A stretch of DNA of 24,369 bases from a virus. Of the stretch, positions 8,528 through 24,369 are shown in pieces. A model generated the notes under the pieces. That model saw only the letters and a list, made by a program, of their open reading frames with translations, ran no database searches and had not been told where the DNA came from. The DNA lies in the IMG/VR virus record IMGVR_UViG_3300003690_000069, positions 1 to 24,369 of that record. The stretch is one strand, 5' to 3'. Numbering within the stretch: position 1 is the stretch's first letter; each line of letters opens with the position of its first letter. A program made the translations under genes and the position numbers.

Positions 8528-8692
8528 TCAGCCAAATCCAGTGTGAGGATGAACAAATTCTTCGTCAGCAAGTTTCCCGCAAAGGACTGGACTGTTCCGA
8601 TCTGCGTGCCACTTGAGGCGATTGAGTTGGGTATCAGTTAGCTTGCCGAACGCACTAGCCAATGTACGCCTGCGGTTCTTTTGTGTAGGCAT
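8528..8692 (-). CDS. Small basic hypothetical protein (54 aa)
   Basis: ATG at 8692, TGA at 8528-8530. The start shares one base with the stop of the upstream gene (TAATG). The product begins with a basic MPTQKNRRRTLASAFG stretch, then KLTDTQLNRLKWHADR, and ends FVHPHTGFG. The basic N-terminus could contact nucleic acid, but no family is recognised. It exactly fills the gap between two other coupled genes, which is the main argument that it is real. Confidence 0.6.
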   Translation of the reverse strand: MPTQKNRRRTLASAFGKLTDTQLNRLKWHADRNSPVLCGKLADEEFVHPHTGFG

Positions 8693-8907
8693 TACTCGTT
8701 CTCCTCTCCAGTTACAGGGGGGGCGTGTTTCATTAGGCGTGCGTAAGACTCGCTGAAACGCTTGTCGAACTCCTGTTCCACTAGCGGCTGGGTAATCTCC
8801 CCGATCTCATTGAGGGCTTTCCATAAGACTTTCTTTAACCTTCTCCTCTCTGGGAGCTTGTGAAGCCGCTCGATAATAGACATGATTTCACATAGCTTTT
8901 CAAACAT
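8692..8907 (-). CDS. Small helical hypothetical protein
   Basis: A 71-residue, strongly helical and charged protein (MFEKLCEIMSIIERLHKLPE...) with a possible short coiled coil at residues 5-40. No family is recognised. A near-ideal Shine-Dalgarno (GGAGGGCGACG then ATG) fixes the start. The gene overlaps the end of the Lar-like gene by 8 bases and its stop overlaps the next start as TAATG, so it is part of the same translational chain. Confidence 0.7.
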   Translation of the reverse strand: MFEKLCEIMSIIERLHKLPERRRLKKVLWKALNEIGEITQPLVEQEFDKRFSESYARLMKHAPPVTGEENE

Positions 8908-9088
8908 CGTCGCCCTCCTGGGTTACAGGTTCTCTACGATTCCACTGCCGGATAGCAGCGGTAACGACACTGCCGGGCATGAACGCCCCGCACTTCTCGC
9001 ATGTTACGGTGGCCAGGAAGTATCCATGCACACCCTCATCCACCTTCGCCCCTCCTCCACAGAAGGGGCACGGTTTAACTTCGTCCAC
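8900..9088 (-). CDS. Lar-like zinc-ribbon protein (restriction alleviation family)
   Basis: A 62-residue protein with the Lar family layout: VKPCPFCGGGAKV (first CxxC, residues 7-10), TCEKCGAFMP (second CxxC), then an AIRQWNRR C-terminal motif. Family members in Rac prophage and phages are linked to relief of type I restriction, though most homologues are untested. The start is a GTG with TAGGAG six bases upstream. The location among early recombination genes is typical for Lar-like proteins. The family call is good; the anti-restriction role is inherited from the family name only. Confidence 0.85.
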   Translation of the reverse strand: MDEVKPCPFCGGGAKVDEGVHGYFLATVTCEKCGAFMPGSVVTAAIRQWNRREPVTQEGDDV

Positions 9089-10931: not shown

Positions 10932-11181
10932 CTATCAGATCCTCCATCGGTGTTACGATAGCCCCAGCCTCGTCGATTGTGAGGTTGAGGTTATCATCCA
11001 TGCCATGAGCAAAGACCGTTTCCATGCACAGGTGTGCTGTCTCTGGCTCGAAAATGTAAACGTATGTATGGCCTGCCTTAAAGTAGACCACGCATCGCGT
11101 GAGGACTCGGCTGTCCTCAATCAGGTCGTAGTATCTGAACAGGTAACGCATCATCTGGACACCCTGGCGGGCAGCTTCCAT
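10906..11181 (-). CDS. Hypothetical protein upstream of RecE-like gene
   Basis: A 91-residue protein: a basic helix, then mixed strands (RVLTRCVVYFKAGHTYVYIFEPETAHLCME) and an acidic C-terminus (MEDLIDENDYRRL). I recognise no family. The first ATG (11181) has no clear Shine-Dalgarno; the paired ATGs at residues 10-11 are alternative starts. The end overlaps the RecE-like gene by 26 bases and contains that gene's ribosome-binding site, so it likely belongs to the recombination operon. Confidence 0.62.
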   Translation of the reverse strand: MEAARQGVQMMRYLFRYYDLIEDSRVLTRCVVYFKAGHTYVYIFEPETAHLCMETVFAHGMDDNLNLTIDEAGAIVTPMEDLIDENDYRRL

Positions 11182-11187
11182 GCGCGT

Positions 11188-11553
11188 TCACTGTTTGCGC
11201 CGCATTAGTTCATAGTGCAATATCCGCTGTACTTCAAGGAGAGTACCCTCTCCACCGCCGGGAACCCGCAATATCCATTCCTCACCCTTCTCGGCCACCT
11301 TCCTGGTAAGGTCACCAAAGGTCATTACGCCGTGGCGTTCCATCAGGTTCAGTGTCCTGGTGCAGAACTCTGCCTGTGCCAGCGGTGTAGATCCCAGCAC
11401 GCTGTTTGGTTTGTCTTGTATGGTGAACTCTGCCTGGGAGATAGCAACGTGCGCTGCCTCATAGTTACCCCGGATCAGGTGTGCTATCACCTTCTCGCCG
11501 GTACGGCGCGCCTCGGTTGGCTCCTGGCCAAGTTCATTTCCTATCAGTCCCAT
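11188..11553 (-). CDS. RNA polymerase alpha C-terminal-domain-like protein
   Basis: A 121-residue protein whose C-terminal 70 residues read like a bacterial alpha-CTD. PLAQAEFCTRTLNLMERHGVMTFGDL aligns with the 'L.VRS.NCLK...I.TIGDL' helices, and ILRVPGGGEGTLLEVQRIL aligns with 'LL..PNLGKKSL.EIK.VL', the helix-hairpin-helix turn that in alpha touches UP-element DNA and activators. The N-terminal half (residues 1-45) is helical and unrecognised; there is no alpha N-terminal domain. It could be a DNA-binding protein or could compete with host alpha-CTD. Its start lies inside the end of csrA, so the two are co-translated. The resemblance is by eye and needs profile confirmation. Confidence 0.6.
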   Translation of the reverse strand: MGLIGNELGQEPTEARRTGEKVIAHLIRGNYEAAHVAISQAEFTIQDKPNSVLGSTPLAQAEFCTRTLNLMERHGVMTFGDLTRKVAEKGEEWILRVPGGGEGTLLEVQRILHYELMRRKQ

Positions 11554-11722
11554 CTATAAGTTTTGCAGCAAGTTGATCTGCCACCTCCTTGCGATGCACA
11601 GCAACATTGTCCGGTGCCTTAATGCCGATCTTCACCCGGTCGGGAAGGATCTCCATTACATACAACTCAACGTCGTCACCAATTGTGATGACTTCCCCTT
11701 TTCGCCTAGTCAGGATCAGCAT
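11534..11722 (-). CDS. csrA: CsrA translational regulator
   Basis: A 62-residue protein, the normal CsrA length (E. coli 61). The first strand MLILTRRKGE, the IGDDVEL turn, RVKIGIKAP and VHRKEV match the family throughout. Leu4 and the Arg of VHR (position 44), the main RNA-contact residues in E. coli CsrA, are present. CsrA dimers bind GGA motifs in mRNA leaders, usually blocking translation. I chose the ATG at 11722, giving the canonical MLILTRR start with AAGAGAG upstream; an in-frame start at 11752 would add ten residues. It overlaps the HTH gene by 17 bases. Phage-borne copies may retune host or phage translation. Confidence 0.95.
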   Translation of the reverse strand: MLILTRRKGEVITIGDDVELYVMEILPDRVKIGIKAPDNVAVHRKEVADQLAAKLIDGTDRK

Positions 11723-11879
11723 TATGTTCTCTCTTGGGTATGAGCCACACATCTCCTACCTTCACGCCACCCAGCGTACCAGCCCGAAGCATCTGACGTA
11801 TACGGCCAGTGGTAACTCCCCGCTTCTCGGCTGCTTGCTTGACGGTCATCAGGTCTTTCAGTCTGTATTCATCATACAT
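11706..11879 (-). CDS. Excisionase/MerR-type HTH DNA-binding protein (57 aa)
   Basis: ATG at 11879 overlaps the preceding stop as TAATG; the stop TAG is at 11706-11708. The sequence LMTVKQAAEKRGVTTGRIRQMLRAG followed by GGVKVGDVWLIPKRE is a textbook HTH_17/excisionase winged helix: 'TVKEAA...GVS..RIRQLIR.G.L...KVG..WLIP'. Members act as recombination directionality factors, small repressors or accessory DNA-benders. It sits directly upstream of csrA with a 17-base overlap, forming a two-gene regulatory unit (DNA-level plus RNA-level). No integrase is in this window, so an excisionase role is unproven. Confidence 0.85.
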   Translation of the reverse strand: MYDEYRLKDLMTVKQAAEKRGVTTGRIRQMLRAGTLGGVKVGDVWLIPKREHNADPD

Positions 11880-12353: not shown

Positions 12354-12581
12354 TCACATTCCTAACTTGGACTTGATGATGTTAATGAGTCCACTGCCCG
12401 CCCCACCCTTGAGAGCATAGAAGGCAGCGATCCCGATACCTATAAGTATTACTAGCCATTTCCTGGCTTTCGCGGCTGCCTCCTTCTTGCGCGCCTTCGC
12501 ATTCAGGATCTCGACCTTACTCGCGGATCGGTCGAGCTTATGATCTTGCTTGTCGTCACGCTTATTGTCACGCTTTGGCAT
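12354..12581 (-). CDS. Small basic membrane protein
   Basis: A 75-residue protein using the ATG at 12581, preceded by GAAGGA at good spacing; an in-frame start at 12614 has no better support. The first 40 residues are extremely charged (KRDNKRDDKQDHKLDRSASK then Lys/Ala-rich), followed by one hydrophobic segment (WLVILIGIGIAAFYAL) and a Gly-rich amphipathic end. The positively charged cytosolic part plus single membrane helix could anchor nucleic acid or protein to the membrane. It forms a run of three membrane proteins with the two downstream genes. Confidence 0.65.
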   Translation of the reverse strand: MPKRDNKRDDKQDHKLDRSASKVEILNAKARKKEAAAKARKWLVILIGIGIAAFYALKGGAGSGLINIIKSKLGM

Positions 12582-12615
12582 CTCTATGTTCCTTCTTCGT
12601 CTGCTTCGTATCATT

Positions 12616-13062
12616 TTACTCGACCTCCCTATCTTTCGACGAGTGTTTTCTTTCCCTCTCCAGTCGCCTCCTGATAGCGTGTCGCCTCATGGCACCGCGC
12701 GTCATACGATTGATGCTGTGTACCATCATCACCATCCAGGGGTAGCTCTGCTTCATGGGGTTCATCGGTGGCCTGATGCAGTGGAGCAGGATAGTCCTTG
12801 AGGTTAGGGCGGTGAGCGCCTTGGAGAAATCAAACGAGTTACGAAACGCATTCGTTGAGTCGGTGACAATCACTTCATCTCCAGACCTCAGCGCGACACC
12901 AAGCTCATGTGCTGCTGGCCTGTCCAGCCAGTATTTACAGAGGTCGTAGTCCACAAACGTCCCTCCAAACTCACCATCCAGGTCATCGGCGTAAGCCTCG
13001 ATCTCATCCTTCTGCTCGCGAAGGCTGTCCTCGCTGAACTTTATTGCGTACCCGTAGATAAT
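12616..13062 (-). CDS. Degenerate serine-recombinase-like protein, probable ATT start
   Basis: Read from the ATT at 13062, this is a 148-residue resolvase-like domain: YGYAIKFSEDSLREQKDEIEAY (catalytic-Ser region), LDRPAAHELGVALRSGDEVIVTDSTNAFRNS (matching 'LDRP.....L...L..GD.VVVTKLDRLGRS') and a C-terminal helix MVHSINRMTRGAMRRHAIRRRL. The catalytic Asp-Arg of KLDR is replaced (DSTN) and the RVS arginine is missing, so strand exchange is unlikely; DNA binding or regulation is possible. A GTG at 12954 with GGAGGG upstream is a second start candidate, but it would remove the conserved N-terminal strand. No ATG, GTG or TTG exists in the upstream part; GGAGGA lies six bases before the ATT. There is no C-terminal HTH domain. 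Confidence 0.6.
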   Translation of the reverse strand: MIYGYAIKFSEDSLREQKDEIEAYADDLDGEFGGTFVDYDLCKYWLDRPAAHELGVALRSGDEVIVTDSTNAFRNSFDFSKALTALTSRTILLHCIRPPMNPMKQSYPWMVMMVHSINRMTRGAMRRHAIRRRLERERKHSSKDREVE

Positions 13063-13262
13063 CGCTGTTCCTCCATCTCGATCATTTCTTCCAAGTAACG
13101 CTGCATCTTTCTGTAGTCGGTCAGCCTTTCAACACCAGGCTTTTTCCCTGCCCGGCACAGGTACTTGGCGATGTTCCCCTCGAAGAAGTTAAGGTTCCAT
13201 GCCTTCACCACATCGAAGGGCTGGATCTCCGAGTAAGTGTAATGTTCTGGGTTCAACGCCAT
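13041..13262 (-). CDS. DUF3310 protein
   Basis: A 73-residue protein with the DUF3310 (SaV-like) signature: PEHYTYSEIQPFDVVKAWNLNFFEGNIAKYLCRAGKK then DYRKMQRYLEEMIE. These small helical proteins occur in many phages, often near nucleotide or replication genes, sometimes labelled nucleotide kinase without proof. It is full length for the family. The end overlaps the start of the serine-recombinase-like gene by 22 bases and carries that gene's Shine-Dalgarno. Function unknown. Confidence 0.85.
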   Translation of the reverse strand: MALNPEHYTYSEIQPFDVVKAWNLNFFEGNIAKYLCRAGKKPGVERLTDYRKMQRYLEEMIEMEEQRLSTGTQ

Positions 13263-20837: not shown

Positions 20838-21056
20838 CTAGTCCTCCAGTTTCCAAGTACACACACGATATACAGTTAGCCATAGTTCACCGATAACGTA
20901 GCCAGCGTGCTTTGATGTTCCATCTACCGTATCAACATACATTTTCCTTGCATGTTGATTGCAAAGATGTTCCATCAACCACTTGCGCGGTGGGTTATCA
21001 CCTATCTGGTAGGTGCTTCCGTATTGATCTACTGCTAAGTATCCAATCTTATCCAT
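20838..21056 (-). CDS. Conserved hypothetical protein
   Basis: A 72-residue protein starting MDKIGYLAVDQYGSTYQIGD and continuing NPPRKWLMEHLCNQHARKMY, VDTVDGTSKHAGYVIG, ending TWKLED. The 'YLA.D.YG..Y.I....PRKWL.......A.KMYVD' pattern recalls uncharacterised phage proteins. GGAGGACTAGTAGCATGG sets the start. It is the first gene after the non-coding 21.1-22.1 kb block, so it may share that block's transcript. Confidence 0.7.
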   Translation of the reverse strand: MDKIGYLAVDQYGSTYQIGDNPPRKWLMEHLCNQHARKMYVDTVDGTSKHAGYVIGELWLTVYRVCTWKLED

Positions 21057-21190
21057 GCTACTAGTCCTCCAGGTTATCTCACCCCACTACCTAGCAGGCG
21101 GGTATCTGCATCACGTACCTCCATACTGGGCTACGTCCAGTACCGCTTTGGACTTTCATCGGCTATAGGAGGTGTCTGCTGCTGTGCGTG

Positions 21191-21289
21191 CGATGCGCGT
21201 GGGAGTCGAACCCACACCTGTAATCAACCCCACCTGTACTGGGCAAGGTTGTCGGTAAGGCCGGGCCTTGCAAAGCCCTCTTACGCACC
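21191..21289 (-). other. tRNA-like T-arm and acceptor module
   Basis: On the minus strand GTGGG-TTCGACT-CCCAC is a perfect T-arm with a consensus T-loop, followed by GCGCATC and one G. GGTGCGT at 21289-21283 can pair with all seven of GCGCATC (two G-T pairs), giving a 99-base cloverleaf-like element with two other arms, including GGGC/GCCC. No proper D-arm or anticodon arm can be drawn, so I do not call it a tRNA. GATGCGT at 21378 or 21475 could pair with the same 3' strand instead, closing a larger RNA. Confidence 0.4.
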
Positions 21290-21353
21290 TCATGTGTCTC
21301 TGGCGAGGGCTGGCCTCCCGATAGGATTGTGCAACAGAGCATTCGCTATCGGG

Positions 21354-21388
21354 CGGCTGCTTCACCTCACCACGCATCTTCTGCCCTT
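21354..21388 (-). repeat. RNA-domain direct repeat, copy 1
   Basis: A 35-base segment matching 21451-21485 97 bases later; 24 bases (CCTCACCACGCATCTTCTGC plus CCTT on the plus strand) are identical, and CGGCTGCT is shared before them. In this copy the segment follows the CCCGATAG/CTATCGGG hairpin, and CCTCACC can pair with GGCGAGG near 21303. Confidence 0.8.
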
Positions 21389-21450
21389 GTATCGCCGGTG
21401 AGGCCACCACCAGGCTGGCCTTCAGGGAACAGGGAGCTACCCTGCCCTGA

Positions 21451-21485
21451 CGGCTGCTACGCCTCACCACGCATCTTCTGCCCTT
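21451..21485 (-). repeat. RNA-domain direct repeat, copy 2
   Basis: Second copy of the segment at 21354-21388. Here it follows a different stem (TCAGGG/CCCTGA at about 21422-21450), and its CCTCACC pairs perfectly with GGTGAGG at about 21397. Both copies share GGCTGGCC on the other side of the stem, so the whole domain, not just this segment, is duplicated. Confidence 0.8.
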
Positions 21486-21605
21486 CGCCACGTTCGGAGG
21501 AGTTACAGACTGGGGCTTTAATCAGGGCGAATACCCGCCGGTAATTCGTTGCCTCCCGGCACCCTGGGTTAGATCCTCACGAACCTACCACCTTAATCCA
21601 GATAA

Positions 21606-21626
21606 CTCCTTCCAGCACGTAGCTGG
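21606..21626 (-). repeat. Hairpin repeat, copy 1 (CCAGC-ACGTA-GCTGG)
   Basis: A 21-base element, CTCCTTCCAG then CACGTAGCTGG, with a 5-bp stem and ACGTA loop. It recurs at 21714-21734 with one change, C to T in the stem, which keeps pairing as T-G. On the minus strand the stem is followed by AAGGAG. Confidence 0.75.
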
Positions 21627-21713
21627 TAGACCAGCGCGATTTGCTGGCTGCCGAGACAGATTTCTAACCGATTGGTTAGTCACGTATCTGTCTGACTCGC
21701 TCTAACAACGTAC

Positions 21714-21734
21714 CTCCTTCCAGTACGTAGCTGG
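21714..21734 (-). repeat. Hairpin repeat, copy 2 (CCAGT-ACGTA-GCTGG)
   Basis: Second copy of the element at 21606-21626, 108 bases away, with one substitution in the stem that remains paired as a wobble. The two copies flank the long AGACAGAT hairpin, suggesting a repeated unit in the structured RNA. Confidence 0.75.
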
Positions 21735-21802
21735 CGACTCCCATACGATACAACGTGATATCGTTGTATTGGTACAGGCAACAACTACCCACAACGGGTA
21801 GA

Positions 21803-21851
21803 CGCAACAACCACAACACAAACAAGTATTGTTTGTGTTGTTGTTGTTGCG
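21803..21851. repeat. 23-position near-perfect inverted repeat
   Basis: Arms at 21803-21825 and 21829-21851 pair at 22 of 23 positions (one C-T mismatch) around a three-base GTA loop. The arms are built of CAACAA/TTGTTG triplets and are poor in GC for a terminator; no T-run follows on either strand. It is the longest hairpin in the window and marks the likely 5' boundary of the minus-strand RNA. Confidence 0.85.
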
Positions 21852-21870
21852 CGTTGTGTACTTATAAACA

Positions 21871-22080
21871 CCGCTATCTGTCGGTAGCTTGGCGATTATC
21901 TTTGAGAATGGCAGAAATAACGATAAGTAACGTAGCCGACTAGGGCGGTCGATATTTTAGCCGCTGGAAGGGGGTCTGTAGGCTATCGGATTGATAATGG
22001 GTAGTACAATGGGGGTCTGGTTGTCGTCCGTTAGAATGGCAACAGAGGATAATTGCACCTGGGAGTAGGTTAGGCGCATA
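21871..22080. other. Non-coding spacer, promoter not identified
   Basis: About 210 bases between the hairpin array and the terminator of the upstream gene. I see no gene and no convincing promoter; TTTATAAGT near 21862-21870 (minus strand) is a weak -10-like sequence with no matching -35. A promoter for the downstream structured RNA should lie here if that RNA is independently transcribed, since the upstream transcript appears to end at about 22080. Confidence 0.5.
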
Positions 22081-22115
22081 AGAAAACCCCCCGGCTAGAT
22101 AGTCTAGCCGGGGGG
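22081..22115 (-). terminator. Rho-independent terminator
   Basis: On the minus strand CCCCCCGGCTAGA pairs perfectly with TCTAGCCGGGGGG (13 bp) around a three-base loop, and TTTTCTTAT follows directly. It lies 20 bases after the stop of the 22136-22930 gene. On the plus strand the hairpin is not followed by T's, so it acts mainly on minus-strand transcripts and separates that operon from the structured RNA locus. Confidence 0.92.
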
Positions 22116-22135
22116 TGGTGGTGTGCTGTGGTGTG

Positions 22136-22930
22136 CTACGCTGGCAATCGTTCATGATGCTGCATGGTATCGATATCAACGTACACCGAACCATCCTCAT
22201 TCAATGGTACGTCACACTCTTTGACGGGAGTTAGAATCCAGCCAGCCTCCGCTTTAACTACCCTAGCGGTTGTCACCGTTGCTTCCTGCGTGAAGAACAT
22301 CGCCTGTTCACGCTCATGCTCTGCAAGAGTAGCACAACCAATCTCTGGTTGACTATCAACAATAAACGATTGCGATAACTTCGCCACAGGCATCCCGTCG
22401 AAGTCTGCGCGATAGGTATCTAGGTGCTTGGAATACTTGTCGCGTGACCGCTTGCCATGGTCTTTCAACGTGCTATCCGCCAACGGTTTGCTGTTGGGGT
22501 TAGGTGTGGAAGATACTTTCCTCCATACGTTACGCCGGAATCCACAGAACCTGGAGAACGTCCAGAGTCCCTGTGTAGCTGGCGATATATCCTCTCCATT
22601 CTTATCGGTGACAATCAAAAATCCTGCGTCACTCAATAACCATTGGCTAAAATCGCCAATCGAATCCTTCGACATTAACTCGGCCTGTTTGAATGTGACC
22701 GGGGAGAATCGTGCATTCTTGTCACGGGTAATTGTCGGTTCGCTAGCTGCGCCGACGAACGTAACAACCCTTCTTCCCTTCTTGAGTTTTCCAGGGTGGT
22801 TGCGCTTGTCGTAGATTCTCCAAGCAGAAATAGACTCGCACTTGGCAATCCCGTGTTCTCGATCTAGTTCAACCAGTACGTTGAACTTGTGATCGTACGT
22901 AGGCTTCTCCAACTTTCGGTACGGTTCCAT
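22136..22930 (-). CDS. Hypothetical protein (264 aa)
   Basis: A 264-residue protein starting MEPYRKLEKPTYDHKFNVLV after AAGGACTTAGTAAC. It has beta-rich ends (HKFNVLVELDREHGIAKCES; AGWILTPVKECDVPLNEDGSVYVDID) and a basic middle (GFRRNVWRKVSS, LKDHGKRSRDKYSKH). A segment SKDSIGDFSQWLLSDAGFLIVTDKNGEDI may be a small alpha/beta unit. I recognise no family or catalytic motif. The basic centre would allow nucleic-acid binding. It ends the 22.1-24.2 kb operon, with a strong terminator 20 bases after its stop, and follows a structured two-hairpin leader. Confidence 0.72.
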   Translation of the reverse strand: MEPYRKLEKPTYDHKFNVLVELDREHGIAKCESISAWRIYDKRNHPGKLKKGRRVVTFVGAASEPTITRDKNARFSPVTFKQAELMSKDSIGDFSQWLLSDAGFLIVTDKNGEDISPATQGLWTFSRFCGFRRNVWRKVSSTPNPNSKPLADSTLKDHGKRSRDKYSKHLDTYRADFDGMPVAKLSQSFIVDSQPEIGCATLAEHEREQAMFFTQEATVTTARVVKAEAGWILTPVKECDVPLNEDGSVYVDIDTMQHHERLPA

Positions 22931-24150: not shown

Positions 24151-24369
24151 GTTAGAGCCTTTCAAAACAGGGTTTAGCGTCCCGTCCCACGCGCGTGGGG
24201 GGGCCGTTAGTATACTAAAATCGACACACTCTAGACCAGAATTCTCAAATAAACAACAAAGTATATATATTCGCCAATTATGTACACTAGTGAACAAGTG
24301 TACACCAGGCGTCCGTATTTCTCCTGTATAGATGGTGGCCAGAAATGCACACTGAGCAAGGCTAATTCG
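24151..24369 (-). promoter_or_regulatory. Leader/control region of the right-hand operon
   Basis: No separate gene is visible in these 219 bases. They hold the AGCCTTTCAAAACAGGGTT leader shared with 23692-23763, a perfect 14-base palindrome CCCACGCGCGTGGG at 24186-24199, an AT-rich stretch (24215-24280) and the operator-like dyad at 24281-24304. A weak minus-strand promoter can be drawn as TGTACA (24304-24299), 16-base spacer, CATAAT (24282-24277). Confidence 0.5.
24281..24304. promoter_or_regulatory. Operator-like dyad TGTACACT-N8-AGTGTACA
   Basis: Two perfect 8-base half-sites separated by 8 bases, giving a 24-base symmetric site typical of dimeric repressor operators. It covers the spacer of the tentative TGTACA/CATAAT promoter upstream of the right-hand operon. 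The symmetry is seen directly; repressor binding is inferred. The HTH and ribbon-helix-helix-like proteins encoded in this window are possible binders, without direct evidence. Confidence 0.55.

Follow-up and report, generated by a model that had tools for sequence, protein, structure and literature searches.

A probable fast-changing structured RNA with a tRNA-like end, leading into a small-gene operon of an uncultured tailed phage

To our knowledge, few of the large noncoding RNAs of phages have a known function. One of them, C4, derives from the leader of an operon. Both C4 and the phage RNA M3 are processed by RNase P (PMC11143913), an enzyme that cuts RNAs presenting a stack of acceptor stem and T-arm (PMC4919913). 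Two larger phage RNAs, GOLLD and ROOL, frequently lie close to tRNA islands, and GOLLD possesses a universally conserved 3' region and a linker that can hold a tRNA (PMC12286853). MALAT1 mascRNA and Men-beta have a tRNA-like fold that is recognised by RNase P (PMC11693755, PMC4919913).

The window analysed here is the entire 24-kb virus record (24,369 nucleotides) of an uncultured tailed phage, in which the minus strand carries nearly every gene from position 24369 down to approximately 3781. Between the gene at 22136-22930 and the first downstream gene lies roughly 1 kb that holds no gene (Table 1). The first-pass annotation had marked 21091-21870, which represents the downstream three-quarters of this stretch; the element reaches upstream to approximately 22085. 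In the order of transcription, the terminator comes first and an operon of small genes follows. Relatives were gathered as contigs reaching the block, by protein searches with the neighbouring genes. These searches initially returned a single contig, and a further query added four, one of which reaches the block. The relatives compared are the 54.5-kb contig IMGVR_UViG_3300032138_000016 (denoted as G001, with its block locus denoted as L003), which was the first to be returned and encodes terminase, portal and major head genes, and the 13-kb contig IMGVR_UViG_3300031800_000043 (denoted as L014). Most genes in common with the relatives are syntenic. Identity to the window is 79-80% in the two long matching blocks of G001 and reaches 94% across 6.8 kb of L014. 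Among cultured phages, no close relative was found of the block or of most marker proteins tried, DNA similarity searches of cultured phages and plasmids gave only chance-level matches of 30-37 nt, and patterns derived from the repeats had no match in IMG/VR. A syntenic gene-free block occurs in both related phages, for three blocks in all.

The block holds no plausible gene, in agreement with the first-pass annotation. Its longest open reading frame (111 aa, 21156-21491, minus strand) has no Pfam or PHROG match. A protein frame conserved in homologues, which that annotation had named as contrary evidence, is not what L014 displays: the same frame meets a TAG within the homologous, best-conserved domain, as read from the sequence, and the gaps in the alignment of the two blocks are not multiples of three. 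As to RNA families, no Rfam model, including GOLLD, ROOL, tmRNA and the CsrB-type models, gave a gathering-level match in the window or G001. Permissive scans (to E = 10) of the window and L014 blocks returned neither GOLLD nor ROOL; they yielded only chance-level families and, in the window block, a tRNA-Sec match that scored 20.1 bits and stayed below the cut-off of 47. In its normal mode, ARAGORN called neither a tRNA nor a tmRNA in the window and no tRNA in the two related contigs G001 and L014, the window and L014 being fragments. Since both Rfam at gathering level and ARAGORN are negative, the block is not a recognisable GOLLD, ROOL, tmRNA or CsrB, and it falls outside the catalogued RNA families.

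Table 1. Features of the gene-free block and its borders, in the order of transcription
Feature	Coordinates	Strand	Details
Intrinsic terminator of upstream gene 22136-22930	22086..22116	minus	14-bp stem, 3-nt loop, T tail; bounds the element on its upstream side
Promoter- or operator-like palindrome CTACCGACAGATAGCGGTGTTTATA	21863..21887	minus	conserved; proposed RNA start region
CAA/TTG-repeat hairpin, 23 bp	21803..21851	minus	arms 96% complementary, z -7.2; near proposed 5' end
GGA hairpin 1, ACGUAC-UGGAAGGAG-GUACGU	21708..21728	minus	z -3.6; 17-nt repeat family
GGA repeat, second copy, ACGUGCUGGAAGGAG	21606..21620	minus	
Domain A, multi-branched hairpin	21499..21609	minus	closed by GGAGUUA/UAACUCC; GUGA and GGGA loops; MFE fold, z -2.5
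Domain C copy 1	21389..21475	minus	72.9 bits to covariance model R1 (itself a training sequence)
Domain C copy 2	21294..21378	minus	90% identical to L014 1766-1858; z -4.3
tRNA-like module	21192..21289	minus	7-bp acceptor GGUGCGU/GCGCAUC, internal hairpins
T-arm of tRNA-like module	21199-21215	minus	GUGGG-UUCGACU-CCCAC
Invariant 17-nt element GCAGAUACCCGCCUGCU (also written GCAGATACCCGCCTGCT)	21093..21109	minus	just ahead of downstream Shine-Dalgarno site
First downstream gene	20838..21056	minus	72 aa, no known family; block-to-gene interval without terminator

All three phages share the same opening: a terminator, then TATGCGCC, then the gene-free block. The strong upstream terminator of the first-pass annotation is borne out by its stem and T tail at 22116-22086, and its position is kept in both relatives, in L003 by scan and in L014 by reading of the sequence, with differing sequences. 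The promoter that this terminator was taken to imply did not materialise as such, because a scan of the block for sigma-70-type sites found none; there is only a conserved palindromic promoter-like element, common to the window and L003 as CTACCGACNNATNGCGGTGNTTATA. Since the palindrome has no sigma-70 -35 box, its promoter role is best regarded as putative. In G001, sigma-70 region 4 is recognised in a protein of 250 aa (L011, 15273-16025; PF04545, E 3e-15), for which the window has no homologue at approximately 8690-8910; such a phage sigma factor could be the reason for the missing sigma-70 promoters. Between its terminator and promoter-like element, G001 also carries about seven TCTCCAGG units at 15-17 nt spacing (L003 1241-1359), absent from the window block, which may be iteron-like or complementary to CTGGAGGA gene leaders. 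In L014, a pair of similar segments, each about 57 nt long (TATTCTGGTAC...CTANGGG-AGAAGGAAACAACGAACA, 1480-1700), lie upstream of the GGA repeats and are possible phage-specific promoters.

The blocks are barely alignable among the phages, and the alignment score of L003 comes mostly from the upstream control region. The neighbouring genes of L003 are about 80-90% identical, yet its block lacks most modules, amounting to approximately 490 nt that the window has. What L003 retains is the terminator position, the 17-nt GGA-containing repeat and the identical 17-nt element ahead of the downstream gene; domain C and the tRNA-like module are absent, and neither is therefore essential to the group. 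An analogous CAA/TTG hairpin is present in L003 and absent from L014. The 17-nt GGA repeat forms tandem arrays in L014 and L003 (2.9 and 2.2 copies, respectively), and its window copies are dispersed. Domain A, for which no homologue was found, occurs in the window only. The comparison of the three phages suggests a fast-changing block whose modules have been assembled, duplicated and lost one by one.

The dense, strong structure reported by the first-pass annotation is real in places and uneven overall. Three 150-nt windows stand out: the one over the CAA/TTG hairpin, starting at 21751, has a z of -6.3, the terminator window from 22051 one of -5.0 and a third, from 21301, one of -3.1, whereas those starting at 21451 and 21001 are at background level. 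The 541-nt core has a z of -2.7 on the minus strand and -2.4 on the plus strand against shuffles, a value exceeded by several 150-nt windows elsewhere in the 24-kb record. The sense fold is more stable than the antisense fold in all three blocks (-351 vs -326, -190 vs -168 and -127 vs -103 kcal/mol). By energy, the significance of the structure is moderate. Comparison, albeit of very few sequences, appears to make the better case for structure in domain C and in the T-arm and acceptor pairing.

Domain C, of about 85 nt, is present in two copies in the window and one in L014. The duplicated domains noticed at first pass correspond to these window copies, whose 35-nt 5' parts are 94% identical and 97 nt apart; their apical stems differ, while the helices are the same. 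When the three sequences are aligned and gapped cells set aside, all 66 counted cells of the 24 pairs are standard pairs, and sliding the partners by 1-3 columns reduces pairing to 31-48%. Three pairs are altered on both sides (C-G to U-A, C-G to A-U and A-U to G-C). The wobble-preserved stems of the first-pass annotation were likewise recovered, as G-U changes at two pairs that keep the domain C helices and are compatible with the sense strand only. Covariation in domain C amounts to three two-sided changes among three sequences, with a score reached by 13 of 500 shuffles; in this test, related sequences may outscore shuffles without structure, and the covariation is carried largely by one paralogous copy. 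Across 127 kb, a covariance model trained on the three sequences recovers these members and no further copy, and its best unfiltered match in L003, at 8.1 bits, is not convincing. A diverged domain C in L003, placed by eye on an anchored inner helix, was rejected, as the covariance model misses it and MAFFT leaves it unaligned.

A pattern scan covering about 119 kb of these phages, on both strands, again picked out the T-arm-like 3' module proposed at first pass, together with a paired acceptor stem. The pattern required a T-loop on a perfectly paired T-stem of 5 bp and, after it, 7 nt pairing with a segment 45-120 nt upstream. Among four matches, more than five of the seven acceptor pairs form only in the window (7/7) and L014 (6/7, with one U-U mismatch), and all five T-stem pairs form in both. 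The L014 module lies in the same place (approximately 1876-1983) and has the T-arm GUCGG-UUCGAGU-CCGAC; the 5' flank CATGAGGTGCG is common to both modules. Between the two, one T-stem pair is swapped from G-C to C-G, and the acceptor changes from G-U to G-C and from U-G to C-G. The central part of the module has been replaced, while the T-stem and acceptor pairing is retained. No CCA is encoded directly 3' of the discriminator. By pairing, the module contains the 7-bp acceptor, 5-bp T-stem and T-loop of a tRNA-like RNase P substrate, and these helices may stack. A functional tRNA with a full cloverleaf, anticodon arm and U33 was rejected on the negative ARAGORN and Rfam results. A tmRNA was rejected in the same way; forcing ARAGORN at a low threshold produced mutually inconsistent folds with no identified tag. 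A genome scan for the T-arm/acceptor 3' end gave one exact match, in a Myxococcales contig, that is not a called tRNA. Neither the window nor the G001 record contains a tyrosine integrase (PF00589), these records possibly being fragments with an integrase outside them; these two results speak against a phage attachment site derived from the 3' end of a tRNA gene.

On the operon side, the element GCAGATACCCGCCTGCT occurs exactly once per genome and is identical in all three phages, and the first genes that follow it look unrelated. A scan found no terminator between the block and the downstream gene in the window or L003, and no promoter-like site was found for that gene. The same-strand run of small genes after the block extends for about 17 kb. 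Several small genes (plus-strand coordinates of TCCTCCAG 20842 and 21065 in the window, and elsewhere) carry a near-identical leader, CTGGAGGACTAGTAGCATG, that includes the Shine-Dalgarno site and looks as if it had spread by duplication.

A gene-free block, its synteny in three phages, the helices of domain C, the T-arm and acceptor pairing common to two of them and the lack of a terminator before the operon were all computed directly. The most likely product of the block is a structured RNA that changes fast, ends in a tRNA-like part and leads into the operon. Our tentative reading, which we favour while holding it open to doubt, is that it forms a long structured 5' leader of the minus-strand operon, probably cut by RNase P at the tRNA-like module. 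A long leader is suggested because no terminator stands between the block and the operon. Transcription would proceed from right to left, presumably starting near 21865, beyond the terminator, and the RNA would carry in order the CAA/TTG hairpin, the GGA-repeat hairpins, the domain C copies and finally the tRNA-like module, with block and operon co-transcribed. The acceptor stem stacked on the T-arm (12 bp) would present the shape gauged by bacterial RNase P. Since this stack is what the enzyme measures, and the phage M3 and C4 RNAs are known substrates, host RNase P may cut at approximately 21290/21289. Such a cut would free a structured upstream RNA of about 570 nt, and the 5' end that processing leaves on the operon mRNA would be folded. 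The freed RNA or the uncut leader might serve as a binding platform, for which phage CsrA is one candidate ligand.

CsrA is proposed because all three phages encode a canonical one (PF02599; 73 bits in the window, 71 bits in G001; TRR and VHR motifs kept in 3/3) and because two of the three blocks are enriched in unpaired GGA, exceeding all 40 shuffles in L014 (7 vs 2.6) and L003 (4 vs 1.2), with zero on the antisense strand. As a ligand it is possible and weakly supported. The CsrA gene is followed by a 121-aa protein in the window (11188-11752, minus strand) and G001 (12438-12972), and both are kept in G001 and L014; this protein has a weak match to the RNA polymerase alpha C-terminal domain (PF03118, E 6e-4, below the curated cut-off). 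A stronger role, in which loop GGAs of the repeat hairpins bind phage or host CsrA so that the block acts as a CsrB/RsmZ-like sponge or a CsrA-controlled leader, would also account for the 17-nt GGA repeat in all three blocks, but we consider it unlikely. The window has 4 unpaired GGAs vs 2.0, a count reached by 25% of shuffles and not significant, and such hairpins number only two or three, far below CsrB. Furthermore, L003 has the core AACCAG instead of AAGGAG and a weak hairpin, AAGGAGG is equally a plain ribosome-binding sequence, and the Rfam Csr/Rsm models have no match. More far-reaching is a new modular leader class with interchangeable hairpin domains, a phage-specific promoter and an RNase P-cut tRNA mimic, whose freed RNA controls phage CsrA; we regard this as a long shot.

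A leader that modifies RNA polymerase by put- or nut-like processive antitermination, or that merely protects or delays the operon mRNA, would suit a hairpin-rich block situated between a strong terminator and the long same-strand gene run, with its invariant element directly ahead of unrelated first genes. Terminator-like sites in the operon are few beyond chance, however (21 on the two strands together, against 15 in shuffles), and no known put or nut sequence was recognised, so that this seems distinctly unlikely. A free-standing large ornate RNA, acting as a GOLLD/ROOL-like scaffold or assembler with the downstream gene under its own promoter, is very unlikely. Its length of approximately 780 nt, many branched domains, modularity, phage setting and tRNA-like part would fit, but the missing 3' terminator and promoter-like site, the rapid turnover, with block lengths that differ widely between close relatives, and the negative Rfam result do not. 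The leader reading fits better because the block enters the next gene without a terminator. Least probable to us is that the block holds only relics, namely a decayed tRNA gene together with DNA-level elements such as an attachment site, an origin or a packaging site, with no RNA function. The sub-threshold tRNA-Sec match, the B-box GGTTCGANTCC, a serine-recombinase-like gene in the window and G001 and the near symmetry of the CAA hairpin on both strands agree with such decay. Against it, T-stem/acceptor pairing persists with a compensating swap despite the turned-over module middle, the G-U pairs suit the sense strand only, neither record has a tyrosine integrase and the Myxococcales match is not a called tRNA. 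The serine-recombinase-like gene (window 12619-13128, minus strand; G001 11122-11493) is a 170-aa frame with the catalytic domain (PF00239) and without the C-terminal part of large integrases.

The first-pass annotation had likened the block to giant ornate RNAs and had suggested a divergent member or a new class. As a description the likeness is partly supported, and syntenic blocks, compensatory changes and the common T-arm support a large structured phage RNA, possibly of a new class; membership in or kinship with GOLLD and ROOL finds no support in Rfam. Like these RNAs, the block is large, hairpin-rich and phage-encoded. Unlike them, it has no Rfam match, tRNA island or universally conserved 3' region and reads into an operon, and where GOLLD conserves its 3' region, only the 17-nt 3' element is invariant here. 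It resembles CsrB and RsmZ in its repeated GGA hairpins within a genome encoding CsrA and differs in its few repeats, non-significant enrichment in the window, lack of a model match and lack of a free-standing 3' end. As in MALAT1 mascRNA and Men-beta, a tRNA-like fold lies 3' on a longer noncoding RNA; these RNAs are eukaryotic, and the parallel serves as a working analogy only. The three phages appear to show how a large RNA is built, duplicated and lost by modules, with a tRNA-like end constrained in its pairing in two of them, and phage CsrA offers a concrete candidate partner. If cutting by RNase P holds true, it would provide a simple rule for freeing a structured phage RNA from an operon transcript. 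The P1/P7 C4 and phi80 M3 RNAs are likewise phage noncoding RNAs, with RNase P maturation at the tRNA-like fold being only proposed here, and the block RNA is far longer, modular and has no identified antisense target. Among described systems, a processed phage leader RNA of the C4 type is the closest analogy, with no membership claimed.
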